From Branchiostoma floridae (taxonomy: Eukaryota > Chordata > Leptocardii > Amphioxiformes > Branchiostomatidae), in the NCBI RefSeq assembly GCF_000003815.2, contig NC_049995.1, forward strand, positions 16,812,301-16,876,300: 64,000 nt of DNA, in the 5' to 3' direction. Positions 8,297 to 56,090 of this stretch are shown here, one piece after another. The notes under the pieces were generated by a model. It was not told the DNA's origin and searched no databases. It was given only the letters and a program-made list of their open reading frames with translations. Numbering within the stretch: the first letter of the stretch is position 1; every line of letters starts with the position of its first letter. The position numbers and the translations under genes were made by a program.

Positions 8297-8390
8297 CAAC
8301 TGAGTGTTCATGAATCCATGTCCATCCCCAGACGAGGCCCTCACCCTCCAGAGCAGTATGTCGTCATGCCAATGTTCGTCCAAAATTTTC
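8297..8390 (+). pseudogene. Decayed partial copy (5' end with acceptor) of the terminal exon at 8883
   Basis: The stretch 'ccccagacgaggccctcac' and what follows to about 8386 align with the first ~65 bases of the exon at 8883-9045 and with part of the intron before it (ATCATTGAATGAA occurs in both). After that the similarity stops. The AG acceptor is kept, but the rest of the exon and its stop are missing, so it cannot serve as a terminal exon. Confidence 0.7.
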
Positions 8391-8542
8391 CAAAACTTCC
8401 AAATGCTAATTCCAAGCAGGCCCTTTAGTCTGTCAAACTACAACACAATCCCACAAACACATTGTCATACTGTGGTTATTCAGTCCCACAAGCTAAGCTT
8501 CAGATCAGATTCTGTAATAAATTCAGATTATTTCTTAGTGTT

Positions 8543-8825
8543 CTAGCCTGCCTGAAATGTTTTCTGTCCCCTGGGTTTTGAATGGAAATTATGTCCAGCG
8601 GGGAAGGGGTGAGACAATCCTTAAGAGGTCCTGGGTAGCAACACCCCCCCCCCCCCCAGGAAAATTTTGAAATCTATACCCTCAAACTCTTTCCTGCATT
8701 TTGAGGGGCAGATTTTGCTGGTAAACTCAGCTTGGTTCAGTGGCATCTGTTTTGGTTTGTCTGTCTACACTTGACTTCCAAAATTCCATCAATTGACGGA
8801 AGGACAGATGCTGGCTTGAACCCTG
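8543..8825. mobile_element. MITE, CAGGGTTGTAGCCAGC family, copy 1 (left end degraded)
   Basis: The interior ('gaaaattttgaaatct', 'tcctgcattt', 'catctgttttggt') and the right end 'gatgctggcttgaaccctg' match the copies at 13156-13525 and 15264-15561. The left end is worn down to 'tagcctgcctgaaatg'. No coding capacity is seen. It lies just upstream of the terminal exon. Confidence 0.65.
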
Positions 8826-8882
8826 TATATCATTGAATGAACTGTTATTAAGTGTTAATCATTCAAAAATGTCCCTCCTCAG

Positions 8883-9045
8883 ACGAGGCCCGCCCCCTCC
8901 AGAGCAGTACGTGGTCACGCCGATGTTTGTCCCCACCAAGATGGAGACGGAACAGCTGAACGAGGACAGCGAGGACTACCAAGGTCGCGGGAGATACCAC
9001 CAGTCTACCGTCATGAGGGGGGAGGAGTATGACAAGTTCGAGTAA
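8883..9045 (+). CDS. Orphan 3'-terminal coding exon, gene unknown
   Basis: A good acceptor (TCCCTCCTCAG) precedes a frame that reads RGPPPPEQYVVTPMFV, continues through a tyrosine- and acid-rich stretch, and ends in EEYDKFE and a stop. The exon codes for about 54 residues. The codons look real, because the partial copies at 8321 and 9125 have decayed while this one stays open. No upstream + strand exon of the same protein is visible, and both TRIM genes lie on the 5' side. Either the rest of the gene lies beyond the window, with the TRIM genes in a long intron, or this exon is stranded. I do not recognise the protein. The ATG at 8833 in the same frame would lie in the intron. Confidence 0.55.
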
Positions 9046-9097: not shown

Positions 9098-9350
9098 GTC
9101 AAACCTGTCCATTAGTGACCACAAAAGAAAAGGACAGCTAAGATTACCAAGGTCGCGGGAGATACCACTAGACTACCATCATTAGGGGGGAATAGTATGA
9201 CCAGTTTGAGTAAAAAAAAAACACAAAATAGACAAATTTTCTTTATTATACTGAGGCATGAAGTATGCATTAAAACCTGTCTATAGTGGCCCCTAATGGG
9301 ATTTGAAGAAAACCAGTGAATGGGAAAGTCTACGACAAGTTTGAGTAAAA
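9098..9350 (+). repeat. Two downstream partial copies of the terminal exon 3' end, with transposon ends between them
   Basis: At 9127-9212 the sequence repeats the end of the exon at 8961-9050, including GGTCGCGGGAGATACCAC and the GAGTAA stop followed by A's. At about 9318-9347 a shorter copy reads TACGACAAGTTTGAGTAA. Each copy is followed by a left end of the CAGTCAAACCTGT transposon (9098, 9266, 9409). Exon end plus transposon end therefore form a unit duplicated about three times, and only the last transposon is complete. Confidence 0.7.
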
Positions 9351-13150: not shown

Positions 13151-13155
13151 TATGC

Positions 13156-15135: not shown

Positions 15136-18100
15136 TTATTCCTTCTTGGTTGCCTTGGTGATCCCTCCAATGATCTTCCTGCGTTGTCGGACCATGTGGA
15201 AATACAACTGGGGAAAAACTGGGGAGAAAAAAAATCAACTTGATGATACAACCTGGTATAGATCAGGGTTGTAGCCAGCACCCATCCTTCAGTCCTTTGA
15301 CGGAATTTTGCAGCTGGGCACTGAAAAATTGTTTTGCCCATTCCGTCCTCTGTGACGGACAAAAGTCGATATGTAAAGATATAAAAAAAACTGTCTCCCT
15401 TGTGTAATTTTTCACCAAAACAGATGCCGTTTAACAGCTTAGTCTAGCAGCAAAATTTACACCTGAAATACAGGAAATAGTGTTTCAGAGGGTCTCTTGG
15501 GCGCTTCATAGGATTCAAAATCGGGGGGACAGAAAATGATTTCAGGCTGGCTACAAGCCTGGTGTAAGCAAGCATTTTCAATCTATTCAATTCTTAGACT
15601 ACCCGGTAACCAATTTGTAATAATCTCACAGAGGGAAAGTCAAAATGAAAGCAACAACAGGCTGGGATACTAAGATAGACTCACATGCTTCCACAGCATT
15701 TTCACTCATTCAAGGGAATAATTGATTTGCAAAAATTTGCATGTGGAAAGACAAAATAAAAACAAGGGATTCTTTCCTTTGGGTTTGAATTAAAGAAAAA
15801 TGAAGCAGGCAAATCCATGAGCAAGAAAATTATATTTGATATGATCCTGGTGCCTTACAGCTAAGTGTATACATAAATACATGTTGAGAGAATTATGCAT
15901 AATCAACAAATACAATAACCAAAAACTTAAACTCGTCTGGTATGATAGCTTACCTGGTATGTACGTGAGCATGATTCCCACCAGGAAGTAGTGGTAGTAG
16001 AAGGAGAAGTTGATCGGGTTGGGCAACTCCAGGGAAAATGCCTTCTGCTCAGCTGCTGGTGTCACTGCACTGTAGATGGCTAGGAGCTCCCCCTGGTGGA
16101 ATAGGAGGCAAGTGCATGACACTTTTGAACACTGAAGTTTGCAGACATTTTGCACATAACCTCAAAAGGCCTCTTTATTCATACAGACAAAAGAGGCATG
16201 TAATTTTCTCAAATTTTTTTTAATTCTTACCAGGCTGGTATATGTACTAATTTACATAGTAATCTGTAGCAATGATTTTTACCCTTGCTGGTTGCTTTGT
16301 TGGCCTCACCAGACTTAAATCTACCTCAAAAGTTACTAAATCTACGTACTATAAACAAGAACGTCATACTTACAGACACACCAATCGGGTACAGTACTAT
16401 GAAAAACGTATATCTGAAAAAAATATGATAACACATTACATTATTGTCATATACACAATATCAAGTTATACTTCATAGCATTGGATAGCACTTCTTTGAC
16501 ATGAGAATTTCAAACTTGAGGATACAATCACATTTGAGTACTTGTCTGAAATCATTAAGCATCTAGAACTTAGTAGAAGCATAAGCCCTGTCATACTGCT
16601 TTTTTTTTTTAGAAAAATTGAGTACCCTAAAAATGATTTATGATGTAAGAACCTAACATAACAATGGAAATGGGTGCCAGCTTTTACATTTTGGCACTGG
16701 GGAAAAAGTAGAATATATGGATGATACACTAATCCTTGTTGTGAATGTGAGAGAGACTCACCTGCACCACTGTAGTATGTAGGGTTTCATGTTGAGCAGA
16801 GCAAAGGTGTAGAAGGAGTGAATGAGTGAGAGAGAGAGAGAGAGAGAGAGAGCCTTACCTGCACCAGATTCAGATTCAGATTCAGCTTTATTCCTGGATG
16901 ACTTGGCATGTATATACACATGAAATACGTCATCAGTAACAGAATCAACTTTAAAACATTAATACATTTACAACATTTAAAATTAGACAGCAATCGGATT
17001 AAGAAAATATACATGACAGAATCAACATTCTTTACCGATCATCTAGCACTTTCGTACAGCAATCGTACAGAGCGGGGTGCAAATGACATCTCATGTCGCT
17101 TCGTTTTACTTCTAGATGCCCTGTATCGGGCTTCCCGACGAAGACTGTACGAACTGTCCTGAGGTGAAGTAAAGAACTCCCTCAGCGGAGAGCTACTGTC
17201 CCGCAGTATGTCTTGTAGAGTCTTCAGCGTCGCTGCGTCCCGTCTGTCTGATAGTGAGGGCAGAGAGTCAGATGGGATACCAATGATTCTAAGACAGCGC
17301 CTCTGCATGGCTTCTAGCTTGTCTGACAGGTGTTTCGGCAGTCCTCCCCACACCGGACTGGCATACTCCAGTAAGGGGCGTAGGAATGTTAGGTAAATCT
17401 GGAGCAAGACATCAGTAGGGAGACCAGCCTTCTTTGCTGCTGCAAGGTAATACACACGTGGACGGGACTTCGTCAACATGAAATGAACGTGTTCATCCCA
17501 GGTAAGGTTGGCAGTGATGTGTACTCCAAGTAGTTTGAAAGACGTAGTCCTCTGAATCACATGTCCGGATATTGTCGGATGAGGAGGGACAGGAATGTTT
17601 ACCTCCTTCCTTGCGCTGATAACCATGTCCATTGTCTTTTTCCCGTTTACCTTGAGAGAGTAGTCCTCCCCCCATTCAACAATGGAGTCAAGTGCCTTCT
17701 GCGTTTGACCAGGAAGTGACGCCATTAGCATTTCAGAGGTTGTCAGATATAAGGTTATACCACTGTAAGATGTAAGGTTTCATGTTGAGCAGTGCGAAGG
17801 TGTAGAAGGAGTGAATGAGTGAGAGAGAAAGAGAGAGAGAGAGAGAGAGCCTTACCTGCACCACTGTAAGATGTAAGGTTTCATGTTGAGCAAGGCGAAG
17901 GTGTAGAAGGAGTGAATGAGTGAGAGAAAGAGAGAGAGAGAGCCTTACCTGCACCACTGTAGTATGTAGGGTTTCATGTTGAGCAGTGCGAAGGTGTAGA
18001 AGGAGTGAATGAGTGAGAGAGAGAGAAAGAGAGAGAGAGAGTCTTACCTGCACCACTGTAGGAAGTAAGGTTTCATGTTGAGCAGTGCAAAGGTGTAGAA

Positions 18101-21100
18101 GGAGTGAATGAGTGAGAGAGAAAGAGAGAGAGAGAGAGAGAGCCTTACCTGCACCACTGTAAGATGTAAGGTTTCATGTTGAGCAAGGCGAAGGTGTAGA
18201 AGGAGTGAATGAGTGAGAGAAAGAGAGAGAGAGAGCCTTACCTGCACCACTGTAAGATGTAAGGTTTCATGTTGAGCAAGGCGAAGGTGTAGAAGGAGTG
18301 AATGAGTGAGAGAAAGAGAGAGAGAGAGCCTTACCTGCACCACTGTAGTATGTAGGGTTTCATGTTGAGCAGTGCGAAGGTGTAGAAGGAGTGAATGAGT
18401 GAGAGAAAGAGAGAGAGAGAGTCTTACCTGCACCACTGTAAGATGTAAGGTTTCATGTTGAGCAGTGCGAAGGTGTAGAAGGAGTGAATGAGTGAGAGAG
18501 AAAGAGAGAGAGAGCCTTACCTGCACCACTGTAGTATGTAGGGTTTCATGTTGAGTAGAGCGAAGGTGTAGAAGGAGTGAATGAGTGAGAGAGAGAAAGA
18601 GAGAGTGAGCCTTACCTGCACCACTGTAGGATGTAGGGTTTCATGTTGAGCAGTGCAAAGGTGTAGAAGGAGTGAATGAGTGAGAGAGAAAGAGAGAGAG
18701 AGAGCCTTACCTGCACCACTGTAAGATGTAGGGTTTCATGTTGAGTAGAGCGAAGGTGTAGAAGGAGTACCGGATGATCTCTGTGATGGTCCAGGCAGCA
18801 ACACATAGGCTCATTCCCAGGCTGGTCTGGGCCTGGGAAAATATACAGAACAGATCTTACATACTGTAGTCCTAAAATGCATGGAACCTAAGCTAGCCTG
18901 CTTGAAGTACTGAACAGGCAGCAACACATAGGCTCATACCCAGACTAGTCTGGGCCTGAATAAAATAATGAACAGGCAGCAATACATAGACCCAGACTGG
19001 TCTTGGCCTGGTAAAATATACAGAATACAATTGTTACATGCACCGCATATGAGGATGAACTGAACAGTATGTCCTACACAACCTAACTAGAACCCAGGCT
19101 ATTAGCTATAGGTCTGCAGAAAGTACAAATCATCTTGAACTATAACCAATAAGAAAGCCCTAGGCAGCCTGCAAGCATATTTTGCATAGTCAGAACTTTT
19201 TTTCAGCTAATAACTATGGACATAGTTTGCTATCACAGCTATACAGTGAAATACAGTAACAAGTAAATGTAGATGAATATTGTTAAGTGACAAAATTCGT
19301 CTTTGTGACAATTTTTGTCAGCATTTTCTATGGGTAACATGCCCCAGATAAAAATTAGCAAATACTTGAGTTTTTACAGACTAACGTTACCTCCTTAAAA
19401 GGATGTGCCACGCCCCAGACCAGGAACACCCGTGAGAAGACCTGGAACGCCGTCAGGAGAACATTGGAGGGGACGATACCCAGCGCCGCGTGCACGATCT
19501 AAACATTACAAGAACACAAGATCTAAACATAAGAAGAGCACATGAAAGGGTTAAATATGGATAACAAACATGCAAGCACCATGAACATAATATTTTCCTA
19601 TTGTTGTAGAGTTGAATATGGCATTAGAAAACAAGAAAGAGCAACAAGAAATGATGATATTGTATTTTGGTGTCAAAGTCAGACAACACATAATAATTTG
19701 ATGATATATTTCTTGCTTATAAAATACCTCCTAGAAACCAAGGGACTGGAATACTTTCAGCATATATAAACTTGGTACTAATACTAGTACTGATCAGAAA
19801 GCAAGTACACTTAATATATACTATTCGGTATTATCAACAACTATTCAACAATGTCTGTAAGTATTTCCCACTCACCTCCAGGATAGCGAGTGACTGGAAC
19901 ACTTTCAGCACCACCTCTACACTGTCATATATCCCTGAGTACATCTGTGGGGGGCTGGGGTTGGTCAGCATGTGTATCAGGTACACATAGAGGACAGCTA
20001 TCCAGCTGTAATGGGATGGTAAAGTAAAAATATCATCGTCATATATCCCTGAGTACATCTGTGGAGGGCTGGGGTTGGTCAGCATGTGTATCAGGTACAC
20101 ATACAGGACTGCTATCCAGCTGTAACAAGGTAAAACACTTTCACTAGTTTCAGCACCACCTCTACACTGTCGTATATCCCTGAGTACATCTGTGGGGGGC
20201 TGGGGTTGGTCAGCATGTGTATCAGGTACACATAGAGGACAGCTATCCAGCTGTAATGGGATGGTAAAGTAAAAATATCATCATCATATATCCCTGAGTA
20301 CATCTGTGGAGGGCTGGGGTTGGTCAGCATGTGTATCAGGTACACATACAGGACTGCTATCCAGCTGTAACAAGGTAAAACACTTTCACTAGTTTCAGCA
20401 CCACCTCTACACTGTCGTATATCCCTGAGTACAGCTGTGGGGGGCTGGGGTTGGTCAGCATGTGTATCAGGTACACATATAGTACTGCTATCCATCTGTA
20501 GGGCAAAACAAATGTAAAATGTCTATGTTGAACAACCCTTGACGCAATGTGCCGTGAGGTACTTTGTCTGGTACTGTGTAGAAGTGGAACCCTGACTATG
20601 TACACACAAAGGTGAGGGTATCGGCTGTAGTGCTAGTGGCTTGCACAAATGTGTGGCCCAGGGGCTACAAAAATGGAGATGGGCACCACCCCATTAGTAA
20701 CCATCTGTTTTAGACCTACAGGTAACTGAAGTAGCTTCCATGATTTTGAATTCTTGGCCTGATTAAATCTCACTTACAGCGGTCCGCCCAACATCCGCCA
20801 GCCAATTACAGTCCGGGACAGCAGAGTTTGTGTTACACATACACAGACTAGGGAACTCTTAGCTTTTAACAATAGTTTTATCTTATGGTTTACTCAGTAG
20901 GAATTTTGACACTGGCTTATCAATTATCTGCCTTGAGCATTTTGTTGAAATATATCTAAAGACTTTAGGCCAACAAGATAAAAGATCACAAAAGAGTGAC
21001 TTAAATATACAAGTGATTTTATCAACAGGATTAAATATACATTTGAGTCTGCTGTGTCCCAGTATTGAGGACATCCTTACTAGTACGCACACCCCACAAT

Positions 21101-24700: not shown

Positions 24701-27130
24701 GGAAAGGACACAAAGGGGTTCTGAAGGGTTTTGTAGACTGTTCTGACTGGATGTCTACGTTTTATCTTTATCGTCCGCAGGAGGTCTACAGTTCCTGCTA
24801 GTCTGGGTGGCGTTCCTGTTCCTGTGGTCGATCCCGCTCATCGTGCTGGAGTACGCCGTCGGGCGGTTCACCAAGAGGGCGGCCCCGACGACTTTCTACA
24901 GACTCCTCGGTGGGAAAACCACCTGGATGGGCCTCTGGATCAACATGATCAACTTTCTTGTTGGGTAAGTTGTTTTGGCATATAGAAAGGTTCTTCCAAC
25001 AAAAAAAAGTTTTTATTGTTCGAACTTCGAACCCTGGAAGACTGGTCCTAAATAAGGCTAAACAGTATCGTAATAAAGGAATGGAAGGCAAAGGATGCTA
25101 CCTGAAACAAATGTTCGTTGCTTGAGTAACTAGTATTTGGCGTTTTTCCCAGTGTAAAGTAGAGTAGATTCATTCCTCAAGCAACCGACACCTTGCACAC
25201 TGCAGTCGTCACTCAGAAATACATCTGGAGCCTTATAGTTTTGCACTTTTATTCGGCCTGTCGGCCAAACTAGTTTTGCTTTGTACAGCTTTTTTAGTGG
25301 CCAGAGGCTAAATTACCTATTCGACGTTTCCCCCAGTGGCTACTACAGCGTGCTAGTGGGCTACACCCTGTTCTACATGGCTTTAGTAACTGGTATTTGG
25401 TGTTTCCCCCAGTGGCTACTACAGCGTGCTGGTCGGCTACACACTGTTCTACATGGTCCACTGCATGTTCTTCCCACTGCCGACAACTCTGCAGGACAGC
25501 CAAGCCATCTGGAGGGGGTTCGTCGATGTAAGCAAAAACACTCTTTGAAAATGCTTGCTAATTAGTGTCATTGTGCATCTGTAGATGTTGGCGTCGACTT
25601 TCAAAAGTCGGGAATTTGATTCGGGCTCATAGAAGAGAACAGCATGGCAATAATGTAAAGTTACAAAAGTCAGAATTTGGACATGGGTTTCAGGCTCGAA
25701 GAAGAGAGCAACCCCCTCTCCTTTCGCTCTCTTTCTATCTCTCTCCCTCCCTCCCTCTCTTTCTGTCTATTTATCTCACTCTCCTGCTTTCCGTCTTTCT
25801 CTCACTCACTATATATATTTCTCTCTCTTACACACTCTCACAATCGCTCTGTATATTCACTCTCACCCTTTCTCACTATCTAATAACGGTGCTAATACAC
25901 CTCTCTATCTCTATTTATCAATCTATATTTCTGTCTCGCAAGATATATACGGATCGTCCTGACAAGTAGACAGATCAAGCAACACTACATGAGAAGTTCC
26001 CCCAACTTACCAAATTACACTTGACATTAAATCTTATAAGAATCTTATTTCTCTCCCATCCAGGAAAGTAGTCTGCCTGTTGCCACCCATTTCGTGGTGA
26101 CCCTGGGCTGTACCATTGTGATCTGGAGGGGAGTGGAGAGTATAGAGCGGGTGATGAAGTTCATCATCCCGTGGTTGTTGGTGCTGGTTCTGGTGATCTT
26201 CATCTGGACATTGACATTGACCGGCGCATGGCAAGGGGTAGTGTACCTTTTCACGCCAGACTGGGGTAAGTACTGTTGGAGTAAATTTTCAGTCATCTGT
26301 ATAATGTGTAATTGTTGAAGCAATTGCTTGGGAATCACAAACGCTTTCAATACATCGGTATGCTGGATTGTCTTTAAGCTGTGATTTGAATTGTACAACC
26401 TGATAAGATAAGAAAGAGAAATGAAATATCAAAAATGAATGCTAACTGTATTCGCCGCTACAAATTATTGTCCTTACCAAGACTTTCGACAGTCAATGAA
26501 TTAAACAACCACATGCAGCCTTTTATTTTTTTACCTACATCTGTAGAAGTGTGGAACAAAGATGTAACGTCACAATGTCGTTATACTAAAACAATAAGAT
26601 AGAACTTTGACGTGAAGTCACTGTTTTCCCCATTGTCCTCTCAAGATGGTGAGAAAAATATAAAACAAAATAATTATCATACTACTGCTACTGATGACGA
26701 AGAAAAAACAATGACGACACCATCATATTTCATATTCAGCTTTGTTGGGAACCCCGAGACTGTGGGTGGACGCGCTATCCCAGAATGCAGTGGACACAAG
26801 CGCGGGCTGGGGCCAGTATCTGGTCTTGGGGACGAGCATGGCCGCCAATCAGGGCGCGGTGCAGATGGGCGTTCTCGTTCCCACGGCCAACAACGCTATC
26901 AGGTGAGACATCTTGTTTGTTTATTTGTGTACTGCACGGGTAGAGAGTTTATTTCATTTCTTATTTATCAATCTTGCAGGGTGGTCCCTTCAGTTGTCAA
27001 CAATTGACTGTTTCAACGCTCAAACGTACGCGTGCACTGGCTTGTTACCAGTGATTCGCCCCATAGCTAAGAGTATGTCTGCATCTTTCGCTTTTCGTTC
27101 GCTCTCTCGCTCTCTCCCTTCATTGTCTTC

Positions 27131-32848: not shown

Positions 32849-35800
32849 CTACACGATAGGCGGCGCGACATACACGCTGGTAGCCTCGCTATCGGTCCTC
32901 TGGCGTGACGTCACCGTTGGGACCACAATCCTTGGCGCGTCTTCCCATGATGCCTTCTTCTGCTCGGCCATGCGCTGCATGACCTCCCACTCGGTCACCT
33001 GACCTTCCCAGCAGCACTTGCTCTGCTTGAGCGAGCTCCTTGGGCGACCCTGTATTCAGATGGAGGGGAAAGAAAATAAGTAGGTGTAAAAAGACAGCAG
33101 TGCTTGCGAAGAGTCTATATCACGCACCGAGAACACATCTCAAATGCTAAAGTACGAAATAAATATTGGTCATTGGCCCATACGAAGACACAAACCAAAG
33201 CTCCTAACCACACAAAAGAGAAAACTGAAGTGGTACGACTCATGGTGATCGGAACTAGCCAAAACTATAACGCAGGGATCCGCCTGGGGAGGAAGTGAAA
33301 CACTAGAAATCAGAAAACCGAGAAGGGTGGAGAAAACTGGTGCCAACTGTAAGTAGTAAGACTAAGGGATAGATGAGGAGACACCCAGTACAAGACTTAG
33401 AAGGAAGGCTAGAAGGCTAGAAAGGATAATTCTATGCGTCAATTCACCGGGCTGGCCACTGAACAAAAAGATGACCACTTTTGGACGGTGGAGCCCATCC
33501 CTCTTCTTCTATCGCGTCTTACCTCCCCAAAGACCCCAAAACAAAATAAAGTATCCCACTTGATTAAGAAAAGTCTTACTAAGTGCCTTTCCCAAAGGCA
33601 CAAGATCCTTACCTCGAATCGCACCTTGTCCTTCGTGGTGACCTTGGTGTCCGCCTTCTTTCCGCTCGAAAATGACGTAGACGACGGTTTCCTTGGAAAC
33701 GCCCTTCGAAGCTGTTCGATCTTGACGGGCGCGCAGAGGGTCTTGGGATTGGTGTCCCAGTTGGGGTAGCTCTGGTTCAGTCGGAAGGTCACCCTCTTCT
33801 TCTTCCTCTGTTTCGCACAGCCGGCGCATGCGTACTCGCCGAGAATGCTGCAGTATTCCGGTTTTGGGTCGTCTGCCATCGGACTGAATGAATGAATGAA
33901 TGAATGAATGAATGAATGAATGAATGAATGAATGAATGAATGAATGAATGAATGAATGAATGAATGAATGAATGAATGAATGAATGAATGAATGAATGAA
34001 TGAATGGTTTATTTCGTTAATACATTGCAGCCGGGGAGGGCACATTAAAATCTAACCCATTGATAAAAACAACTGCACTATCTGGCAAAGCACCAACGTA
34101 CCTACTTTGTTGGCAAAAGATAACTAAATGAGAGAAATTGCCAAGTATATTACATGTCGATACTGATCGTAAAAGCTTAAAGAATTCTTAAGTACATTTA
34201 TAAAAGAATTTGTATCTCATGTTATCGTTAAGTAACCTTGTCAGGTATGGAGCAGGTAAGTCTCTATATCTGTGTGTTTTATACTTAATAGATCTGAATT
34301 TGTTTGAGTTTCTAGTATTCATACTACGAAACAGAATACTAATACAGTAGAAGCAAGTTAATTGCACAACGGATTAACGCACACTTCTGTTAGCTGCACG
34401 AAATCCCAAAACCCCAAACCGGTGCGATCCACCTAGATAGCTTCACATTATTGCACCATCCGGATAATTGCACGAAATTTACTGGCAGATAGGCCGTGCA
34501 ATTAAGCGACTTCTACTGTATTCTTACTGTTTCTGACACGTTCTCGTTCCCAGCTTGTGGTCCTCTCGTCTCTCGGGTAGCGGGGTGACGGCTCGGGTCG
34601 GGCAGGGGTCAAACCGGGACATGAGAGAGAAGTGGTCTTTTTTTGGAGGCGGCGCCGCCATCTTCCCGTTCGTCCTGGTCCACTTGTTGAACGTCAGGAG
34701 TTCAAGTTCGACCGCTCGGCGCATGGCCTCGACGTCATGTTCGGTGATCTCGTCGACGGTCGGCGAACGGTTCCGATCTTTGCCGAAGATGCGTCGGGAA
34801 ATGTCGACGTTGAGGGAGTCGCGCCCGCGAAACGTGCCTAGCGGGCGAAACCTGTGGTAAAACAAGACCATAGCATGTCCAGGTAAAAAGATATGAATAA
34901 TAAATTGAAGTTCTGCTGCAGTACCAAGGTCACACACCAGGGGGGGCCAAAAATGAAATTGACCTTCGTCTTCCCAACCTTTACTTACATACCATCATCG
35001 TAGTCCATCAAGAGGTTCTAAAGTTATGCTTACCACAAATATCCGGAAAGACAAACACACACACACACAGACAGAAAGACACAGACAGACACACCAAAAA
35101 ACTATACCTCAATTTTTCATGGAAGTAATAACACGGATTAGAAAATATAATATAATCGGGAAATGGAGGTGTTGAGAGAGTCGCGACCCCGAAACGTGCC
35201 TAAAGGGCGAAACCTGTGGTGAAATAACACGGGTTGAAAATATGGTATATATTACGGGCTTTTCAATAAAGCAATTCTTCATGTGTCAGGAAAGGGTACC
35301 CCTGTTCATCGTTGCTTAGTTTCAACATAACCTCCACCAGGCCTTCCTAAGGGGGTTAGGATAATAGAATTCGGCGAGTCTCAAATTTGGACAATGAATT
35401 GTCCAGGAGAGTCAGTACAAGCTATATTAAAGGTGAACATAGCAGAGTTCCCCTCTAATATTAAGCAAATTATTCTTATAGCCCTGTATAGCCAGCGTAG
35501 TCAGTCTGGTACAGAACAATGTTAACGCAGCTATAACCATGCATGTTTACAAGGGGAGAAAGGTACTGCACACTGGACTGTAACTAAGATACCAAGTTCT
35601 TACGCTAGTGTTGTGACGTGAAAAATGTTGTGAAAAATGTGACGCTTACATGGCTCACAAGTGATCGTAACAATATACTTGTATGCACATAAAATTACGC
35701 TCCGGTTGGTTCCATTTTGTATACACCTCAGTTAAAACTTTTTAAAGAACTTAAATTATAGCAACATTCACAAGAGATATCGCAATACCGATATCATACT

Positions 35801-43029: not shown

Positions 43030-43100
43030 GTTGATGATGATGACGGCGCTGTACCTCCCAGGGGGACCCTCGCCTGATTACCCACATATGTAGCGGTATG
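43030..43100 (-). promoter_or_regulatory. Conserved upstream element of Kelch gene 1
   Basis: On the - strand GCTACATATGTGGGTAATCA followed by GGCG lies 40-65 bases before the start codon. Near-identical words precede the starts of the other two paralogues (51092-51118 on - and 51436-51460 on +). Its position suggests core promoter or 5' UTR, but no function is shown. Confidence 0.55.
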
Positions 43101-43283
43101 GCGTAGACAACTGAATCAAATCATGTAAAGTATATCCAACACAGTGGTATCTTTAGAACACTATCCCAAACGTGGCTTAGCTTGTACCCCCCTTCGTCCC
43201 GGTTCATCACTGGGGTGGATTTTCTTATCCAGACTGCTAAGCCATATTGGGATAGTGTTCTTGCCGCAAAAGCGCCACCTACA

Positions 43284-43440
43284 TCGGCTACATATAGCGA
43301 CAACAAGCAGAAATCCAGTTAGAAGCTCGGAGGAAGATGTCCGATAGACATAGAAACGTAAGCAGGTGAGAAAAACTGGTTGTGAAAAAGAAAATTCTTA
43401 TGTCCTATGATCTACCTACCTGATGAAATTATTTTCGGAG
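43284..43440 (+). repeat. Interspersed repeat, uninterrupted copy of the family at 14487
   Basis: 'gctcggaggaagatgtccg', 'gaaacgtaagcaggtgaga' and 'gatgaaattattttcgga' match the two ends of 14487-14980. Non-coding. Confidence 0.55.
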
Positions 43441-47400: not shown

Positions 47401-50400
47401 AGGCTGAATACGGCACGGTTGAAAATTCGAATACTGGATTCGGACGTTGGAATTGCTGTTGTTACAATCGTTTCTCAACTTCTGGTGCATTTTGCATCAA
47501 AACATGCATTTTCTCAGGTGGGTATGACATAAATAAAATACAACACGTTGTATTCCGCATCACCCTCGGTCCCAGCCCTCCCACGGGTCGGATCACCTTC
47601 CGGTCTTCGGCTGTCGGGCGATCCTTCCCTTAGTCGGGCAGGGAACATCAGTTGATATGGAATACACCGTGTTGAATTCTATATATATATACATATATAC
47701 CCACCTGTCCTCCCTGCTGTGCTGCACCCATCTCACCACAGCCTCCCACACTGTTGTCTCCTCTTTAACATCCAGCTCATCGTGGCTGATGATCTCAGTC
47801 AGCTGATTCACATTCAGGCTGCAGAACTCCTCGCTTGAGGCAACCTGTGAAGGTGTACATAACACTGTTGACATGTTGGTCTTGTTCGAGTTACCCAGAC
47901 AAGAAGCAAACAAACAAACATTACGTTTCTGATACATTATTTATTTATTGGAGTGGGTACCAGTATAATGTAAGTGGAAAAAATAGGTATTTCTTACAAA
48001 GATTTACCACCACCAGCAGTGGAACCGAGTGCTGATATAAAAAAGTAGCGGGTTCCGAACTGAATTTACCAGTGCTCTGGAACTTTTCAGTACTGGAAGA
48101 CCAGTGCTGTAAAAACTTCAGCTCTGGACGTAATAGAAATATAGTACTAATGTACTACTACGTAATCAGATTCAGGTCATGTCCAGTCCAGACTTGGACC
48201 TGATCCTTTGAACCTGGACTGGACCTGGACCAGAATTTTCTAAACTGGTACCCAAAAAAGTTTTAACCAAGTACATGCAAGCTAAACATGTAGCTAACTG
48301 TCTTTTCTAGTGATAAATTGTCATCTTTATATGCGCAATTGCATATTTGAATCTCAAAACAAGTTTTCTTGAGTTTCAACTGCAAAATTATCACGATTGT
48401 CATTGATGATTCCGGATTTACTTATCCAGAAGTCTTAAAAAGTGCTAAAAAAAAGTGATTTAGTTTGTTTAGGTCCGGACCTGTACCTCAACAATTTTTT
48501 AGGTACGGTACAGGTACAGGTATTTAGGTACACAGCCCTACTTAAAGGCATCCTAAGCAATATTACAGCATTAAAGGTGGAAATATTCTGAATAAGGCAG
48601 TCTGTATAATGTTGACATCTAATGCACTCTTTTAGCACATTTACTTCTTTATTTCATGAATCAAGCTGTTAAAAACAGCACAGGAACAAGTCGCATGACG
48701 CATNNNNNNNNNNNNNNNNNNNNNNNNNNNNNNNNNNNNNNNNNNNNNNNNNNNNNNNNNNNNNNNNNNNNNNNNNNNNNNNNNNNNNNNNNNNNNNNNN
48801 NNNNNNNNNNNNNNNNNNNNNNNNNNNNNNNNNNNNNNNNNNNNNNNNNNNNNNNNNNNNNNNNNNNNNNNNNNNNNNNNNNNNNNNNNNNNNNNNNNNN
48901 NNNNNNNNNNNNNNNNNNNNNNNNNNNNNNNNNNNNNNNNNNNNNNNNNNNNNNNNNNNNNNNNNNNNNNNNNNNNNNNNNNNNNNNNNNNNNNNNNNNN
49001 AAAACAAAATCTATAAATACAGTTTATTTTAGAATATATATACATCCCTGCAATGAATGAGACCAACCTCAGCAAAGTGCATACAGATAAAGTGCAGACT
49101 GCACTTCAGAACACTGCCCACAAAGAAGACATCAGCAAACTTGTACAGGTCCACACAGGTGGAGCGCTGCATGTTAATGGCCATGTAGCTGCTGCAGGTG
49201 TCTCTCACATAGTCCAGTTGGAGGAGGTCGGCTGCCTGGTACAGGGGCTGCACTTTGTCCAGGGACACATGGAGGGTTCCCGAGTAGATGTAACTCAGGA
49301 TCTCCCCAAAAGCGCCTGCATCCAAACCCTGCAGAAGAAGGGTAATAAGTAATCATTTCACACATTCGACCATGCAAGGGGGGTAACAGGATTGGTGGAC
49401 TTGTACTGCTGTCTCGATTGTCTCAATTTGCAAAACAGTATCCAGACTAGCTTTGTTAATATCTAGCGGGTCTTTGATATAGTATCTACCTTACTATCTT
49501 AAAATGTATTATGTCCTATCATACCATAACTCTACACCATGACCACAGTTAGACAAATAAATGAATGAAATTCATATATTCCCCAATGGTAAATATTCCC
49601 CAATGGTAATCCAGTGACGACAAATAAGCCCCACTGGTAAAAAAGTGACGACAAATATTCCGCACTCTAGGAAACAAACTGCTGGGACCCACATTGTGTA
49701 ATGCCGGCATTATTGTTTACTGAAGAAAAAGGAATCATTGTTCCAGTTGAGGGGATTTGAAAGTTAAAGCACTTAAAGTTATACTATCGTTGCCAATAAA
49801 TCTAACAGTAACATGACTATGTGAATTTGGGTGTTTTTGTTGCATATCGAAACCAGCACTGGAACGTTCTGCTATTAGGACGTGGTCACTGGAAGCCCAG
49901 TACGGAAATGATTTCACCACTCATACGTATATACTAGTACTGTCATAGTCCAGTGCCGAAGAGTCACCGATCACTGGAAAACCCAGTGAGGAACTGGTGA
50001 CCTCGATGATTCCGCACTCGGTGTCCAGTGACGAATGACGTTCATCACTGGGCTCGAGTGACGAGCGGAGTTCATCACTGGAAATCAAGTGACAAGTCAA
50101 GGTTCAACACCGGAATTCCAGTACCGAGAAAGCTTAATCACTGGCACAAAGCAATTCATCACCGGAAAACCAGTGACAAACTTTCTTGCGAACTGGTGGC
50201 CTCATCTTCCTTTACCCGGTGCCTCACATTTTGAGGGGTATTCTCTCGGGCTTCACGCACTGGGAAACTGGTGTACACGGTTGCATCCGCAGAAAAACGA
50301 AGGAAAACTCGGATGATGACGGCAGTGACTAGTCTACGCATGACTATGAATGCCTGTTCAGGCCGCTTCCGAGCCAAGACTGTGGTTATTGGTTGGTGTA

Positions 50401-51071
50401 GTCAGGTGACCTGCAATTCCCTGACCAGTACTCCGCCTCACGGCGCGGTACTAACCATGTCAAGTGACGACGCCATTTTGAATATATGTTCGTCACTAGA
50501 AGCCCAGCGATGAACCCGTGACCCGCATATCCTTGCTTCTGTTTAAGGCAATATTGTGCTTAACTGTTCCAAAAAAAAGTGCGCTGGAAGAAAAATCACT
50601 GCAAGTGTACACCTACCCCCCCAACTCCCCCCCCCCCCCCCCACCCCAAATGAGAGTGGGGAGGAGGGCAGAAGACGGATCGATCTCGTGCAGTTCAGTT
50701 TATCCGTCCCAGGTCTCAAGCCCACACTCTTTCCTGTTTGAAACACTAGTTTTGTCATAATTTAATACTGTCCGCATTTCTGCCTTCAATACATGTGAAC
50801 GCCACGCCAACCCTACCTGTAAAACAACCGTCTTCTGCCGACTTTCCGCCATGTCACTTGTAAACATGGCCCTGAAGTAGGGGCTGGCCGCGGACAGAAC
50901 AAGCCGATGGCAGGGAAACCGCCGGCCCTCGACTTCAAGGACGACATCCTGCAGTACACCAGTCTGCTGTAAGTCTCCCATAGTTCCAAGAAGCCCTTTC
51001 AGGTAGCTCTCGTCTTGGTAGGAACGAGGACGAACTGCGCTGACGTGGGGTTCTTGGTCTGCGGCAGCCAT
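44457..51071 (-). CDS. BTB-BACK-Kelch protein, paralogue 2
   Basis: Exons in transcript order: 51071-50817, 49328-49068, 47844-47705, 46897-46697 and 45384-44457. They give 1785 nt or 594 residues. BTB begins in exon 1 ([20 protein letters not shown]) and finishes in exon 2 ([12 protein letters not shown]). BACK spans exons 3-4, and the Kelch propeller is wholly in exon 5, ending [17 protein letters not shown]. The start is taken as the MAAADQ methionine at 51071, aligned with both paralogues; an in-frame ATG at 51119 lies in the conserved upstream element and is less likely. A likely Cullin-3 adaptor by family. Intron 2 holds a 297-base N gap, and intron 4 holds a long CCAT microsatellite ten bases from the donor. 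Confidence 0.9.
45410..46225. repeat. Inverted repeat pair in intron 4 of Kelch gene 2
   Basis: A - oriented copy of the repeat seen at 40375-40690 covers about 45704-46020, and parts in + orientation lie at 46085-46225 ('ttcttccagatcacttcag', 'catttcaaaaaccatatca'). Another - piece is at 45410-45480. Transcripts could form a long hairpin. An open frame at 45765-46040 is part of the repeat, not a gene. Confidence 0.6.
46492..46680. repeat. (CCAT)n microsatellite in Kelch gene 2 intron 4
   Basis: About 47 CCAT units with a single imperfect one (CATTCATC near 46510). It ends ten bases from the intron 4 donor (GTCAGT, 46696-46691 on -). The long MDGW-repeat frame on the - strand is an artefact of it. 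Confidence 0.95.
48704..49000. other. Assembly gap (297 N)
   Basis: The sequence is unknown here. The gap lies in intron 2 of Kelch gene 2 and does not affect its exons. Confidence 1.
49590..50190. repeat. Degenerate palindromic minisatellite in Kelch gene 2 intron 1
   Basis: The word TTCATCACTGGAAA...CCAGTGACGAA, itself an imperfect palindrome, recurs with decay at about 50041, 50071, 50103, 50134 and 50156, a period near 30. Related words lie at 49600, 49640, 49890, 49960, 50025 and, past the array, 50488. The copies are too diverged for a young satellite. Confidence 0.6.
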
Positions 51072-51480
51072 GTTGATGATGATTATGACCCCTGCCTGAT
51101 TATCCAAATATGTAGCCATACCACGGCCATACTGAAAGAAGACATTATAAGCTTGTTCACCATTCCGAGTGCGAATGTGCAGCTACATATAGCGCAACAT
51201 GCCAAATGTAAAGGCCCCTGACCCGTGAACACTTGTGACATCGCTTGTCTTAAGGCAGGGCGTTGTGCTCAGACCCAAGAGGAGAGAGGTCCCGAGTTCG
51301 AAACCGTAACGTGCTTATGGCCCTCAGCCTAATAATAACGAAGAATAAGAAGAACAGTCCTTGTTGCGACCATATTGTCTCGATTTGCATAACGAACATC
51401 TTACATTAGTTGTATAATGTCGTTTTTCAATATCGCTACATATTTGGGTAATCAGGCAAGGGGTCATCATCATCATCAAC
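51072..51480. promoter_or_regulatory. Head-to-head promoter region of Kelch genes 2 and 3
   Basis: The start codons are 409 bases apart and divergent. The first ~50 bases upstream of each are inverted copies: GCTACATATTTGGRTAATCA, then 'ggca', 'ggggtcat', a CAT-rich stretch and 'caacATGG'. The gene pair therefore arose as an inverted duplication that included the proximal promoter. Confidence 0.65.
51236..51325 (+). mobile_element. tRNA-derived SINE-like fragment between Kelch genes 2 and 3
   Basis: 'aggcagggcgttgtgctcag' resembles an A box region, and 'gaggtcccgagttcgaaacc' a B box with T-loop. There is no full tRNA fold. It lies inside the shared upstream region. Confidence 0.4.
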
Positions 51481-54400
51481 ATGGCCGCCTCAGACCTCGA
51501 ACCCCACGCCAGTGCAGTTCGTCCTCGTTCCTACCAAAATGAGAGCTATCTGCACGGGTTTCTTGGAACTGTGGGCGACTTGCAGAAGGCTGGGGTACTG
51601 CAGGATGTCGTCATTGAAGTCGAGGACCGGCGGTTTCCCTGCCATCGGCTTGTTCTGTCCGCGGCCAGCCCCTACTTCAGGGCCATGTTTACAAGTGACA
51701 TGGCGGAGAGTCGGCAGAAGACGGTTACTTTACAGGTGAAGTTGGCGGAAATTTCCTTGTATCGAAGACAGCAGTACAGGTAGTAATAATAATAACAAAA
51801 ATATGGTCTACAATTGGGGAAAGGGGTAGGATTGCGATACCCCCCCCCCCGAAGTTTCTTCTGCCCCCCCCCCCCTCCCCACATTTCTTTGTCTCTTGTG
51901 CATGTCAAATCTGGGCATTTTGGGGCTTGCTCTTGCAGTCGTTTTCTTTCCAGCGCACATCTTAGGAAGCACTTAAGTAGAAAATGGCCTTAAACAGACT
52001 GGGATGTAAAATCTAACTTTTATAAATTTGTTGATCATTCCAAGTTCGTCTTCGCAGTGACAGGAATTGTGGGTAATATGTCAAAGGTGAATGCCTCTGA
52101 TACATTATAACTTTTGAAAAATTGAATTAGAATTTGGTCATTTGAGTAATTTAGTGAATTTATCTATTTCAATTGATAATAAAGAAATTAATATGATGAC
52201 AGTGTTGTGTGTTCTAGCTGTTATTATGATAGACAGAATACATTTGATGCTTCAAATATCATTCAAATATTGTTTTTCAGGGTTTGGATGCAGGCGCTTT
52301 CGGGGAGATCCTGAGTTACATCTACTCAGGAACTCTCAATGTGGACAAAGTGCAGCCCCTGTACCAGGCAGCCGACCTCCTCCAACTGGACTATGTGAGA
52401 GACACCTGCAGCAGCTACATGGCCATGAGCGTGCAGAGCTCCACCAGTGTGGACCTGTACAAGTTTGCTGATGTCTTCTCTCTGGACAGAGTTCTAAAGC
52501 GCAGTCTGCATTTCATCTGTATGCACTTTGCTGAGGTTGGTCTCTTCACTTTAGAGGTCTATAAATAAAAACAATGAATGAATGGATGAATGAAAGATCT
52601 TTATTGTACATTCATGCCTCAACAGGCTAGGTACAGGTCACTGATAACAGACATGACAGACATAAGCATAGACAAGATACAGATTAACTATTTGAAGTTG
52701 CCAGGTCAACATCTTCTCGCTTCTTTGTGCAGGTGTAAATATAAGAACAGATAATGTTTGATATACAGGGTTTATCTAGGCGCATCAAAAATAGAAATTT
52801 ATCCGTTGCATTAAGATGTTCAAAATATGGGAACTCTTTTCTGATATATTCATAAAGCACAGTTCGTTCCTTATGGTAAAATTTGTACTCAATAATTTTT
52901 GCCGGTACCAGGTGTCGATACCCACCGGCCTATTTTTTATTTGAAACTTAACGTATTCCTTAATTTCTGCTTGTTTCCGTTAACTGGCCAAGGACCCACA
53001 TTTCAACTGTGTCATTCATGTACATGTACTCTGCGCCTCCACAGGTTGCCTCCAGAGAGGAGTTCTGCAGCCTGAGTGTGAATCAGCTGACTGAGATCAT
53101 CAGCCATGATGAGCTAGATATTAAAGAGGAGACAACAGTGTGGGAGGCTGTGGTGAGATGGGTGCAGCACAGCAGGGAGGACAGGTGAATATCATACTAT
53201 CAAATATAGACTACAGCTCAGTTTTATATATAATTAATATATATAATAATTATATATAGATTATTATTTTAATTATTATATAACTTCATCAGGATTGTAG
53301 GACATTTGAATATTGAATTCTTGTTAAAAAAACTTATCTGCATGTGCCCTGCTATTTTGATAAAAGACTGACAGCCTCACATCAGAAGATGCTCTGAAAT
53401 TTTGTAAAATCTTATAAATATTGGTGAATAATTTTATGTCCAGTTGTGAAAAGTGACCACAAGATACAGTTGCAAATTCCAATGTGATCAGTAACCCCTA
53501 TTCTGAACCCTACAGACTGCACCACCTACCCAGCATCCTCCCTCACATCCGCTTCAGCCTGCTTACTGCAGATGACACGGCAGCCATATTGGATCACCCC
53601 CTGGTCAGGGAGGATCCTGGGAGATCTGCCATCAGGAACGTGGTGAAGGAGGCCTCCAACGAGAAGAAGAGAGCGGGGATGGACACACTGGAAATGGCCA
53701 TGATTTTTATCTGCGATCGTTTTCATAGGTCAGTGTACAACAACATGTTCCAATTCTTGTACTTTACCATTCAGATGCACAAGGAGCCAGAAAAAGTGTC
53801 TTTTGTTCTGTAATAAGTCACTTCTATTCTGTAACAAAGCTTAGTCCCATAACAACAGCACACATAGGAGTAGCCATGTAAGGAACTATTGGCAATGCAG
53901 GGCCCGAAATACCACCTGCATATGCAGGTTAGTGCAGGTAAAATTGGAGCTGTGAAGGTATTTCTAGTGTCTCCCTGAACCTAACCTGCACTGGTCCATG
54001 TACTACGTTTTATGCATTAATGTCAAAAGATGTAGGTGTTATAATTATAAAGTACACTATAAAGTACAAAAGAAAGTATAGCAATTTTTCCTAAACAATT
54101 TTAGTAAGATACATCCTAAATTCAGAGTAGTGCAGGTAAAATTTGTCTGGTGCAGGTAATTTTCCATGTTACCTGCACCAGTGCAGGTATGCAGAAAAAA
54201 GTATTTCGAGCCCTGCCATGTAAAGCAGGTATCTCACTAAATCTGAGGCACATTGGCGGGGGTACTGCAACCGAGCGATTTGAATTGAATTAAACCTTAA
54301 ATACTTTGTGTGTTCTGTAGCTTTGCAGGTTTTTCAGATTCAGTTTAGAACACAGTGACGCCGCCAATTTATTGCAGCTTCAGTGACAAACCAACTGAAG

Positions 54401-55436
54401 AGTAGACAACTGTGTGCCATGTTTGTTTGACCGCATTACATTTTTACATAAATTAACATTCCCCTTTTATTGACAGTTTACAATATGTTTTGTCCCCTGC
54501 AGGACCAAAGGCAATGAGGTCCTCTACATGAATCCCAGGGCAGGGAAGTACATCACCTGCAGGTATTCTGAGGAGGAACTGCCGAATGTTTGTCCTATGG
54601 CTGTTGCCAGTGGCAACAGTATTTACGTCATGAAGAGTGGAGATCCAATGATAACCAATGAGTTGGCTGTGTTGGAGTACAGCCATGCAGGCAATGTGTG
54701 GCAGCGGGCTAACATGTCCTCATTTTGTAGGCCTAACATAAATGACATCGAAGAGTTTGATGAGTTCCTTGTTGAAGTTGATAAGATTTTGTATTACATT
54801 ATCGTGGAAACGTTACTAGACAGTACATCGGTGTGGATGAGAAAGTACGACAGGCACACAGACCAGTGGCAGAAGTGTTCACCGCTGCACCTCAGGATCA
54901 GCAAACCAACAGGGGTATGCTCTTACTACACGGCTGTACCCTGTGGTTCGCACATCTATTTCCTCATGGAGCCAGAAATGCATCGCTACGACCCGATCCA
55001 GGACTGTTGGTGTAAGCGGACCCCAGTATCGGAACTAGACTGGTATGGAATCTGGACGGCAGCTGCCATGGGAACCGAGATCTTCTGCACAGACACAGAG
55101 TTCACCAAGACCTTGGTGTACGACACAGAGTCTGACAGCTGGCAGGAACTGCAAGGCTTGCCAAACCGAGACCCAGAACTTGACAGCAATGACTACGTCT
55201 TCACAGTCCTTTTTGTACTGGAGAACCAGCTGCATGTATTGGTTAAGATATTAAAGACAGCCTTACAACCGTCAGAGGAGGCTGTGTATGTGTATGACAG
55301 GTCTACTGATACCTGGAGGGACTTGGAGGCCAACGTGCCTAGCCTAGATTTTTCAACACAGTCTGGGCTCTGCCCAGTGGCACGTATATACCTACCGTGT
55401 CTTACTGCAAAGGCTATAGGTGCACAAGGGCACTGA
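51481..55436 (+). CDS. BTB-BACK-Kelch protein, paralogue 3
   Basis: Exons: 51481-51735, 52281-52535, 53045-53184, 53516-53728 and 54503-55436; 1797 nt or 598 residues with the same intron positions and phases as its two paralogues. BTB reads [24 protein letters not shown] includes [20 protein letters not shown]. The propeller is in exon 5, where repeats show VLEYSHAGNVW, MHRYDPIQDCW, VYDTESDSW and VYDRSTDTW. Relative to paralogue 2 it lacks two residues in the BTB end (TLNVDKV against TLHVSLDKV). It ends YLPCLTAKAIGAQGH. Likely a Cullin-3 adaptor by family; no specific KLHL name is assigned. Confidence 0.93.
53898..54215. mobile_element. hAT-like MITE, CAGGGCTCGAAAT family, copy 4, in Kelch gene 3 intron 4
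   Basis: Ends CAGGGCCCGAAATACC and GTATTTCGAGCCCTG. The interior is closely related to the copy at 38865-39102 and repeats 'tgcaggtaa' words in both orientations. Confidence 0.75.
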
Positions 55437-55582
55437 CTTGAGTACAGCATGCCCTTAGAAAATGACTGATATATGGTTAGCCCTTTTTTGTCAGATCGAA
55501 CTGCACATGAGTAGGTCAATGGTTTTTCCCCTGATTTGGGAAGAGTTGTTGTCTCAACCATGCTTTAAAAATATAAGATTTT

Positions 55583-56090
55583 CTTCTTTCAGATCAAGCC
55601 CACAGTCATAGTGATAAATATTCTGGCTTGAGACTGTGTCTTATTGCAAAGGCTATAGGTACACAAGGGCACTGACTTCGGTACAGCATGCATTTAGGAG
55701 ACAATTATCTCTTCATGCCATCAACTTTTACTATTGGGGATAGGTATCACTGTATTTTTGTAATGGAAGTTTAGGTAGAAATGTCACAGTGCATATAGAT
55801 ATCATTGCGTAGATATCACTCTTACCATTTTTCTTTTACTAGACAATCAGCTGCATGTATGGTTTGAAGCCATACACTTCTTGCCCTTCACAAAGTGGGA
55901 GTATCTGGTATATGTCTATGACTACTGTCTACTGAAGTATGGAGAAAGCTGAATGCCACCGTGCCTAGGCCTACTGGAGATGTTTTCATTCCCGACGCGC
56001 ACCTCCCAGTGGCACGTATGTACCTACCATGTCTCACTGCAAAGGGCACTGACTTGAGTACATATACATCAAGCCCCTAGGAAAGGCTTT
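55583..56090 (+). pseudogene. Remnants of Kelch gene 3' ends downstream of paralogue 3
   Basis: At 55628-55694, 'tgtcttattgcaaaggctat' and 'acacaagggcactgactt' repeat the end of paralogue 3 (55396-55450). At 55842-56085 a second remnant starts like paralogue 2's last Kelch repeat (GACAATCAGCTGCATGTATG, then GTTTGAAGCC) and runs through a damaged propeller end to 'ctcccagtggcacgtatgta' and 'aaagggcactgacttgagta'. Frames are broken. These are partial tandem copies and not functional. Confidence 0.7.

Follow-up and report, generated by a model that had tools for sequence, protein, structure and literature searches.

Partial exon copies in the lancelet Branchiostoma floridae: local duplications with largely synonymous divergence from the working exon

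In the lancelet window analysed here (the whole stretch of 64,000 nucleotides), several genes carry truncated pieces of their own exons beside the intact ones, which raises the question of what these copies are and where they come from. A first-pass annotation had placed such pieces at six sites and described them as short tandem duplications with one breakpoint inside an exon. All six were recovered by BLAST self-comparison followed by reading, with E-values for the pairs ranging from 7e-9 (one 5' piece of exon 4 of the HACD gene) down to 0. The proposed geometry fits as well, since the copies form direct local pairs at six exons of five genes. Different families of local duplications in the window are considered below, together with kinesin and globin loci of the same genome.

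Exon echoes in the window

Eight local-duplication families, each copying one exon border, account for the echoes, as the partial copies are called here; exon ends used in the counts were partly approximate. A ninth family (60288-60470) lies entirely within one coding exon. All exon echoes found were in direct orientation. The features are listed below (S and N, synonymous and non-synonymous differences from the intact exon).

8280..8381, plus strand: upstream 5' echo of the orphan exon, with acceptor but lacking a donor; exon sequence starts at 8332 (79% over 105 bp; 5 S : 2 N)
8883..9045, plus strand: orphan terminal exon, intact from acceptor to TAA, as read from the sequence
9131..9221, plus strand: 3' echo downstream of the orphan exon (term3), stop kept, no acceptor (88% over 91 bp)
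16749..16866, minus strand: distal end of the HACD exon 4 (E4) array, past an inserted LINE fragment
17759..18710, minus strand: array of units of about 93 bp, every one carrying the last 58 bp of E4 and a consensus donor, the final unit being split by the LINE fragment (TRF)
18711..18832, minus strand: E4, intact copy (the E2-E3-E4 join matches PTPLA)
18915..19025, minus strand: two 5' echoes upstream of E4
19876..20005, minus strand: HACD exon 2 (E2), intact copy, last of five (same PTPLA-matching join)
20006..20500, minus strand: four truncated, acceptor-bearing E2 copies with two spacer types
25120-25154, plus strand: older acceptor scrap upstream of the SLC6-family exon
25318..25380, plus strand: 5' echo upstream of the SLC6-family exon, exonic from 25337 (3 S : 0 N, the exonic stretch as aligned taking in 2 intron bases)
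25413..25527, plus strand: SLC6-family exon, intact
34524..34851, minus strand: terminal coding exon, intact, of a gene without Pfam match
35156..35230, minus strand: 5' echo upstream of the preceding exon, exonic at 35156-35213 (84% over 75 bp; 5 S : 4 N)
54504..55436, plus strand: terminal exon of Kelch gene 3, intact (Kelch matches)
55633..55697, plus strand: 3' echo with stop downstream of the Kelch gene 3 exon (89% over 65 bp; 0 S : 3 N)

Two gene identities were established by Pfam from joined intact exons with the copies left out: HACD against PTPLA (E=1.6e-29) and the SLC6 gene against SNF (E=1.6e-15). The orphan terminal exon had no Pfam match. It is accompanied by a third, tiny scrap (3 S : 5 N), and its 3' echo is neutral-looking (4 S : 7 N, with in-frame stops). 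The larger block 55822-56104 aligns to 44433-44705 and displays 15 S : 35 N; rather than a further echo of Kelch gene 3, it appears to be the terminal part of a different Kelch paralogue.

The HACD gene holds the two arrays. The first exonic bases of the truncated E2 copies, all upstream of the intact exon, are at 20495, 20364, 20250 and 20119, and these copies are set in a higher-order repeat of 245 bp (2.4 units by TRF). The E4 array comprises 10.2 units of 93 bp (TRF), and ten complete donor-side copies plus one split by the LINE fragment were counted downstream of E4. Eight distinct exon-end types occurred among 11 E4 copies and four among five E2 copies. The four-gamete pattern was observed in 8 of 28 site pairs of the 11 E4 copies; units of the E4 array have recombined with one another. 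According to the translations, use of any of the ten complete E4 decoy donors, or of three of the four E2 decoy acceptors, would be followed by a stop codon, while splicing to the remaining E2 decoy, at 20119, would insert 38 residues in frame.

Kinesin and globin loci, sides and placement

The first-pass annotation had also suspected a genome-wide process, which independent cases in kinesin and globin genes support. A DNA-level scan of kinesin loci, followed by reading, disclosed nine exon duplications (K1-K9) among 22 local-duplication families. K2 and K3, both in locus L040, are complete exon copies and K7 is an internal piece without donor. K8 is an array in L044 and K9 an array in L043 (1478-2185) with six decoys. 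A core-only exon test, applied to the best 74 of 134 kinesin matches (69 of the 74 with a locus) and 30 further ones, flagged K1 and K7 alone among the matches listed, because exon ends often fell outside the HMM match. The apparent echo at C10:11014706 was dropped as a wrong-strand read, its strand having been guessed by stop count, and a short myosin pair in L054 was scored as non-exon. The same scan recovered both published globin mirages, those of BflGb6 and BflGb9 (PMC3087553, PMC3902484), with their published unit lengths: spacings of 154, 158 and 158 bp in L070 against 150-160 bp published, and 157 bp in L066 against 157 bp.

The arrangement of the copies had been taken as informative in itself: 5' parts upstream, 3' parts downstream and a single definable full exon. 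This was true of 8/8 exon-border families in the window. Among the kinesin loci, the rule of sides was weakened by K7, which lacks a donor, and by a weak 35-bp pair in L042 with a donor-border scrap (about 7 exonic bases) lying upstream, contrary to the rule; the single full exon did not hold for K2 and K3. Geometry alone imposes the rule on every tandem duplication that has a single breakpoint within an exon. It is therefore no evidence for a special mechanism, and its use as a sign of one was rejected.

A preference of the duplications for exons was not supported by either count. In the window, 9 of 15 families touched exons versus 5.8 by random placement (p=0.077), and in the kinesin loci 9 of 22 versus 7.6 expected (p=0.34). 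The exon map for the latter count was obtained by tblastn: K3, K5 and K6 fall outside it, and its nine mapped families comprise six exon duplications by reading (K1, K2, K4, K7, K8, K9), two families in L012 and one in L042 that are not, or hardly, exon duplications. Overlapping kinesin loci were mostly excluded from the density count, L010 and L016 still overlapping. No exon preference was thus observed, and an exon-targeted process was rejected. Among 13 local inverted pairs listed, 12 could be checked against the exon map and none was an exon echo; the only one touching exons joins two inverted neighbouring Kelch genes.

Synonymous differences between copies and working exons

The new observation is that most differences separating the copies from the working exon are synonymous, the K9 array being contrary. 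Using the nearest copy, S:N was 48:21 over 16 comparisons, where a dead copy next to an exon under constraint should show 28.6 synonymous differences; globin included, it was 66:28 over 18 comparisons, versus 38.9 (the neutral synonymous share of globin being fixed at 0.26 by hand). The most cautious count, where K8 and K9 entered with all their sites and both 5' pieces of E4 were treated as one, still gave 69:35 over 17 families, with 43.0 synonymous differences expected for dead copies. None of 50,000 simulations reached it, the bootstrap range was 54-80% synonymous and 15 of the 17 families exceeded expectation. With a fourfold higher mutation rate at synonymous sites, this count would lose its significance (p=0.06). 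Pooled counts took one copy per comparison, except that sites were combined across copies for Gb6 and, where the cautious count is concerned, for K8 and K9; they excluded further array copies, K2, K3, the orphan scrap, the old K8 scrap and the Kelch paralogue block. Differences inside one family are non-independent.

In 13 comparisons, with numbers of synonymous and non-synonymous sites entered by hand, dN was 0.031 versus a dS of 0.19 and a flanking divergence of 0.19. Within the arrays, variable exonic sites were synonymous in 7/8 cases for E4 and 4/4 for K8. The full duplicates K2 and K3 displayed 10 S : 0 N and 6 S : 2 N, respectively. The K9 array showed 4 S : 8 N, opposite to the general bias, and the old K8 scrap 3 S : 4 N. 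Neutral-looking or mixed patterns were recorded for term3, the Kelch gene 3 echo, the orphan scrap, the old K8 scrap and the gene of exon 34524-34851. As a control, codon rhythm was sought in 19 pairs of non-coding local duplicates and none was found (76/150, p=0.58). The coding side of this control, K8 and K9 excluded, gave 62/87; eight further control families, K8 and K9 among them, had 25/47 differences in the best phase (p=0.41).

The flanking spacers of several echoes aligned little better than shuffled ones. Divergence in echo flanks was larger than ordinary allelic differences would suggest.

Relation to lancelet mirages and origin of the copies

Minisatellites called mirages have been published in lancelets for Adh3, globins BflGb6 and BflGb9, TnC and PGBD5 (PMC3087553, PMC3902484), a label that the first-pass annotation had applied correctly. 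They are described there as short tandem duplications across a 5' or 3' exon-intron border, with splice signals in many copies and concerted evolution. Instability of length, in germline or soma, is a further trait of mirages, reported for Adh3; the sequence read here is one merged haplotype, in which E4 units bear the mark of recombination. The window belongs to the same cephalochordate lineage. Its E2 and E4 arrays share the border-spanning repeat, and border-spanning single duplications occur at the SLC6 exon, at exon 34524-34851 and at the 5' end of the orphan exon. The borders concerned are 5' at E2, SLC6 and exon 34524-34851, and both at E4. The 3' echoes of the orphan and Kelch gene 3 exons differ in spanning the stop and 3' flank, with no intron border. 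As minisatellites proper, with several head-to-tail units, only E4 and E2 qualify, whereas the other window echoes have one to three extra pieces each. The HACD, SLC6 and Kelch genes, two genes without Pfam match and several kinesin loci are new, as are the measurements of a silent bias in most copies, the lack of exon preference and the departures from the rule of sides. In its main text, the globin mirage paper uses none of the terms "synonymous", "silent" and "gene conversion". The mostly synonymous differences had been overlooked in the first-pass annotation as well.

Could the echoes be debris, artefacts or functional exons? Tandem duplications simply decaying neutrally beside a constrained exon would suit term3, the Kelch gene 3 echo and the K9 array. 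Such copies should however be about 41% synonymous, against 66-70% whichever count is used, and their dN should reach about half of the flanking divergence, against the one sixth or so observed; the variable sites of the E4 and K8 arrays also speak against it. This reading is disfavoured for the pooled set and seems unlikely overall. The assembly deserves equal scrutiny: it was built from Sanger shotgun data of one diploid, whose separately assembled haplotypes were merged by HaploMerger2 according to its published description (PMC7269912). Two divergent haplotypes falsely joined in tandem at exons would, for single echoes, produce the same geometry and the same silent bias. The arrays, with eight E4 types in 11 copies and four E2 types in five, hold more than two haplotypes can supply. 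Many offsets are of 76-170 bp, shorter than one Sanger read, and the sole N run of the window (48704-49000) lies away from the exon-echo families. Published mirages, supported by RT-PCR and trace data, were recovered here with the right spacing. A two-haplotype join was therefore rejected for the arrays and less firmly for single echoes; as a general explanation it is quite improbable.

Selection through use, for instance as alternative splice borders, would account for the code-like substitutions, for the AG retained in 5'-type decoys read by eye, for the in-frame product predicted at 20119 and for the resemblance of the two full duplicates in L040 to mutually exclusive exons. Yet partial copies lack one border, most HACD decoys would lead to stops, and the globin and Adh3 mirages seemingly do not interfere with regular splicing according to their authors (PMC3087553, PMC3902484), which makes such selection very improbable. 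Templated insertion, the copying of neighbouring sequence into introns in the course of break repair, would agree with the copies of exon 34524-34851, K4 and K7, which show little homology beyond the exon part. It should also generate inverted copies, of which the 12 checked pairs offered no exonic example, and it is the explanation given least credence.

The echoes are, in our judgement, likely to be lancelet mirages, that is, local duplications with mostly young copies stemming from haplotype exchange in a polymorphic species. Short local direct duplications would arise throughout the genome and, wherever a breakpoint fell inside an exon, would leave on the forced side a shortened copy that retains a single splice site, the anatomy observed here. 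The gene would keep being spliced from its intact copy. The duplicated stretch would then behave as a small unstable minisatellite, with copies recombining, as those of the E4 array did, and presumably being gained and lost over time. Most copies are probably young relative to the divergence of exon alleles, and probably arose when unequal exchange brought together exons of different haplotypes in this highly polymorphic species. Descent from the exons of other haplotypes would explain why differences are mostly synonymous despite the intronic location; copies formed in this way probably persist only briefly. Counting against this reading are the K9 array, the neutral-looking or mixed copies, the sensitivity of the cautious count to a faster synonymous rate, and echo flanks more diverged than alleles would ordinarily be. 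A further-reaching version, possible but doubtful, has truncated intronic copies repeatedly swapping roles with the working exon by unequal exchange between homologues and forming a reservoir of functional exon-end alleles that purifying selection holds protein-true. Constraint on both copies would require that they had served as working exons on separate haplotypes, and the synonymous bias would then directly record that exchange.

Duplications that copy splice signals are also the raw material of intron gain by tandem genomic duplication (the AG/GT model of Rogers), a link proposed by the globin authors (PMC3087553, PMC3902484). By eye, no new intron was seen between duplicated AGGT sites in the window, where copies sit in existing introns or past the stop. 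K2 and K3, each with acceptor and donor, are comparable to mutually exclusive tandem exons at the sequence level; window copies differ, none being full, and being truncated they cannot serve as internal exons.

Mirages thereby move from a few published curiosities to a countable frequency (nine exon duplications in the sampled kinesin loci), with exons untargeted. The silent bias of most copies provides a testable handle on the rates of birth, exchange and loss of exon copies in introns. This bears on the origins of new introns and alternative exons, and on how the correct border is chosen in splicing when many equivalent ones are present.

Exon copies in the window

Self-comparison, TRF and reading of the sequence verified partial exon copies at all places where the first-pass annotation had named them:

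Partial exon copies in the window
HACD exon 2: five copies with acceptor; the donor is reached in the last copy only
HACD exon 4: two 5' pieces upstream; ten donor-bearing complete copies and one LINE-split copy downstream
SLC6 exon: 5' piece on the upstream side
Terminal exon 34524-34851: 5' piece on the upstream side
Orphan exon 8883-9045: 5' piece upstream and 3' piece downstream
Kelch gene 3: 3' piece on the downstream side

The intact HACD exons, once joined, matched PTPLA (E=1.6e-29) and the joined SLC6 exons matched SNF (E=1.6e-15), so that the choice of intact copies was sensible. The 3' fragment of a LINE-like reverse transcriptase, together with a short tail repeat (16867-17758, minus strand), interrupted one unit of the HACD exon 4 array. 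The sole N run of the window lay at 48704-49000. Other features were a tandem pair of genes (852-2780 and 5158-7071), which we take to be TRIM/NHL-like, with 85% identity over 2.7 kb and a coding part without introns; three BTB-Kelch-like genes (39117-55436), two on the minus strand and one inverted on the plus strand; the partial 3' end of another Kelch paralogue (55822-56104); and two near-perfect microsatellites, (TGAA)n at 33885-34006 (~30 units) and (CATC)n at 46494-46680 (~47 units).

Frequency and sidedness of local duplications

Local duplications were defined as direct repeats at most 1 kb apart, of at least 35 bp and at least 75% identity, low complexity being excluded. Under these fixed criteria the window held 15 families, nine of which overlapped the 35 mapped exons: eight involved an exon border and the ninth was internal to a coding exon. 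Nine overlaps are not significantly more than the 5.8 expected under random placement (p=0.077). Kinesin loci yielded 22 families in ~176 kb (12 in 117,569 bp and 10 in 58,009 bp), and here too the nine touching tblastn exons were no significant excess over the 7.6 expected at random (p=0.34). Myosin and globin loci displayed two families in 39.5 kb and six in 32.2 kb, respectively. Family density was higher in the window (2.3 per 10 kb) than in the kinesin loci (~1.25 per 10 kb). The local duplication process is not exon-specific and, given the lack of significant exon excess, truncated exon copies are an outcome of abundant short local duplications where genes are dense.

The side rule of the first-pass annotation, which placed 5' parts upstream and 3' parts downstream of the intact exon, stands as a pattern and falls as evidence for a special mechanism, since geometry forces it in any direct tandem duplication: one that starts in an intron and ends in the exon leaves a truncated 5' piece upstream, and one that starts in the exon and ends in an intron leaves a truncated 3' piece downstream. 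As this requires neither selection nor mechanism, the rule shows nothing more than that the duplications were direct and in tandem. Among the 13 local inverted pairs listed, 12 could be compared with an exon map, and just one of these touched exons; it pairs a BTB exon of one Kelch gene with that of the inverted gene next to it.

Kinesin loci and published mirages

By reading of the sequence, nine of the 22 kinesin families were exon duplications (K1-K9, in sampled loci numbered L):

Exon duplications in kinesin loci
K1, L033: two upstream 5' copies
K2 and K3, L040: full exon copies, both borders present
K4, L043, 3167-3386: upstream 5' piece
K5, L046: downstream donor-bearing 3' piece, assigned to the gene from position and open reading frame
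K6, L037: piece of the first exon, upstream
K7, L049: downstream internal piece without donor
K8, L044: three downstream donor-bearing copies in exact 134-bp units, and an old scrap
K9, L043, 1492-2146: six upstream acceptor-bearing copies, seven with the exon, units of 94-121 bp

The earlier statements that just one copy is a full exon and that 3' parts carry a donor or stop were contradicted here, by K2 and K3 and by K7, respectively. A weak pair in L042 placed a donor-border scrap (~7 exonic bases) on the upstream side, contrary to the side rule. K3 was identified by a kinesin motif. The two tandem full-exon duplications of the L040 gene (1687-1792/2138-2242 and 3583-3632/3702-3750) are candidates for mutually exclusive exons, judging from sequence; the first pair displayed ten synonymous and no non-synonymous changes, with a GC donor in one copy.

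As a positive control, the scan recovered both published globin mirages, with spacings of 154/158/158 bp and 157 bp, compared with published values of 150-160 bp and 157 bp (PMC3087553, PMC3902484). The assembly carries three extra units in the BflGb6-like mirage (L070:1036-1599), as published for haplotype 2. Mirages have been described for Adh3, globin, TnC and PGBD5; they are reported to evolve in concert and, for Adh3, to be somatically unstable, and the authors of the globin study suspected that they are a general phenomenon (PMC3087553, PMC3902484). The name 'mirage', already proposed in the first-pass annotation, holds for anatomical features, which the arrays and border echoes found here share with amphioxus mirages.

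Silent bias and origin of the copies

Synonymous and non-synonymous differences (S:N) were counted with one copy per comparison, scored against its own exon. Over 836 exonic bp, the initial 14 comparisons gave 44:20, with codon positions at 15:6:43. Addition of K8 and K9 (16 comparisons) gave 48:21, where a dead copy next to a constrained exon should yield 28.6 S; with globin added (18 comparisons), the ratio was 66:28 and the corresponding expectation 38.9. The most cautious count, using every variable site of K8 and K9 and merging the two 5' pieces of HACD exon 4, gave 69:35 in 17 families against 43.0 (reached in 0 of 50,000 simulations; family bootstrap 54-80% S; 15 of 17 families above expectation); weighting synonymous sites by 3 or 4 changed p to 0.001 or 0.06. 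Coding duplicates displayed a triplet rhythm (best phase 62 of 87 mismatches, 0 of 5,000 simulations), which was absent from 19 non-coding local duplicates (76 of 150, p=0.58).

That echoes merely decay neutrally beside a constrained exon is therefore unlikely for the ensemble, as pooled S exceeded this expectation under all three counts. Neutral decay also predicts a dN of about half of dS and flanking divergence; 13 comparisons gave dN 0.031 and dS 0.19, with 0.19 per aligned site and 33 gaps in the border-adjacent 36 nt. Some copies nevertheless look simply dead: the K9 array (4:8 by site), unlike most other arrays; the 3' copy of the orphan exon, which contains in-frame stops (4:7); and the Kelch copy (0:3). 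The copy of terminal exon 34524-34851 was mixed (5:4). The K9 ratio slightly raised our estimate for neutral decay and slightly lowered it for haplotype exchange, for role swapping with the working exon and for selected use. Selection of the copies for use, for instance as alternative splice borders, is very improbable: a stop codon would follow from use of any of the ten HACD exon 4 decoys and at three of four exon 2 decoy acceptors, although the fourth (20119, minus strand, penultimate copy) is in frame and stop-free, with a predicted insertion of 38 residues. Donors matched the consensus in all 11 exon 4 copies (ten decoys and the exon).

By reasoning, with a single working copy at a time per chromosome lineage, constant copying of the working exon should not lift the S share above ~41%; a higher share implies either that both copies are active today or that each descends from an exon that functioned on a separate haplotype. 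The second option would suit most families better, as a truncated copy cannot act as an internal exon: divergent homologues would have undergone unequal exchange, with rapid loss afterwards, K9 and older echoes being copies presumably retained long enough for decay. Among the 11 exon 4 copies, four gametes were observed in 8 of the 28 pairs of sites, indicating exchange within the array. It is possible, though doubtful, that mirage copies are mostly not dead and swap roles with the working exon between homologues. We consider it probable that the copies are lancelet mirages, mostly young and short-lived products of haplotype exchange. Silent bias of mirage copies was not reported in the open-licence papers searched. 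Mirages were already known; added here are the lack of exon preference, the exceptions to the side rule and the silent bias of most copies.
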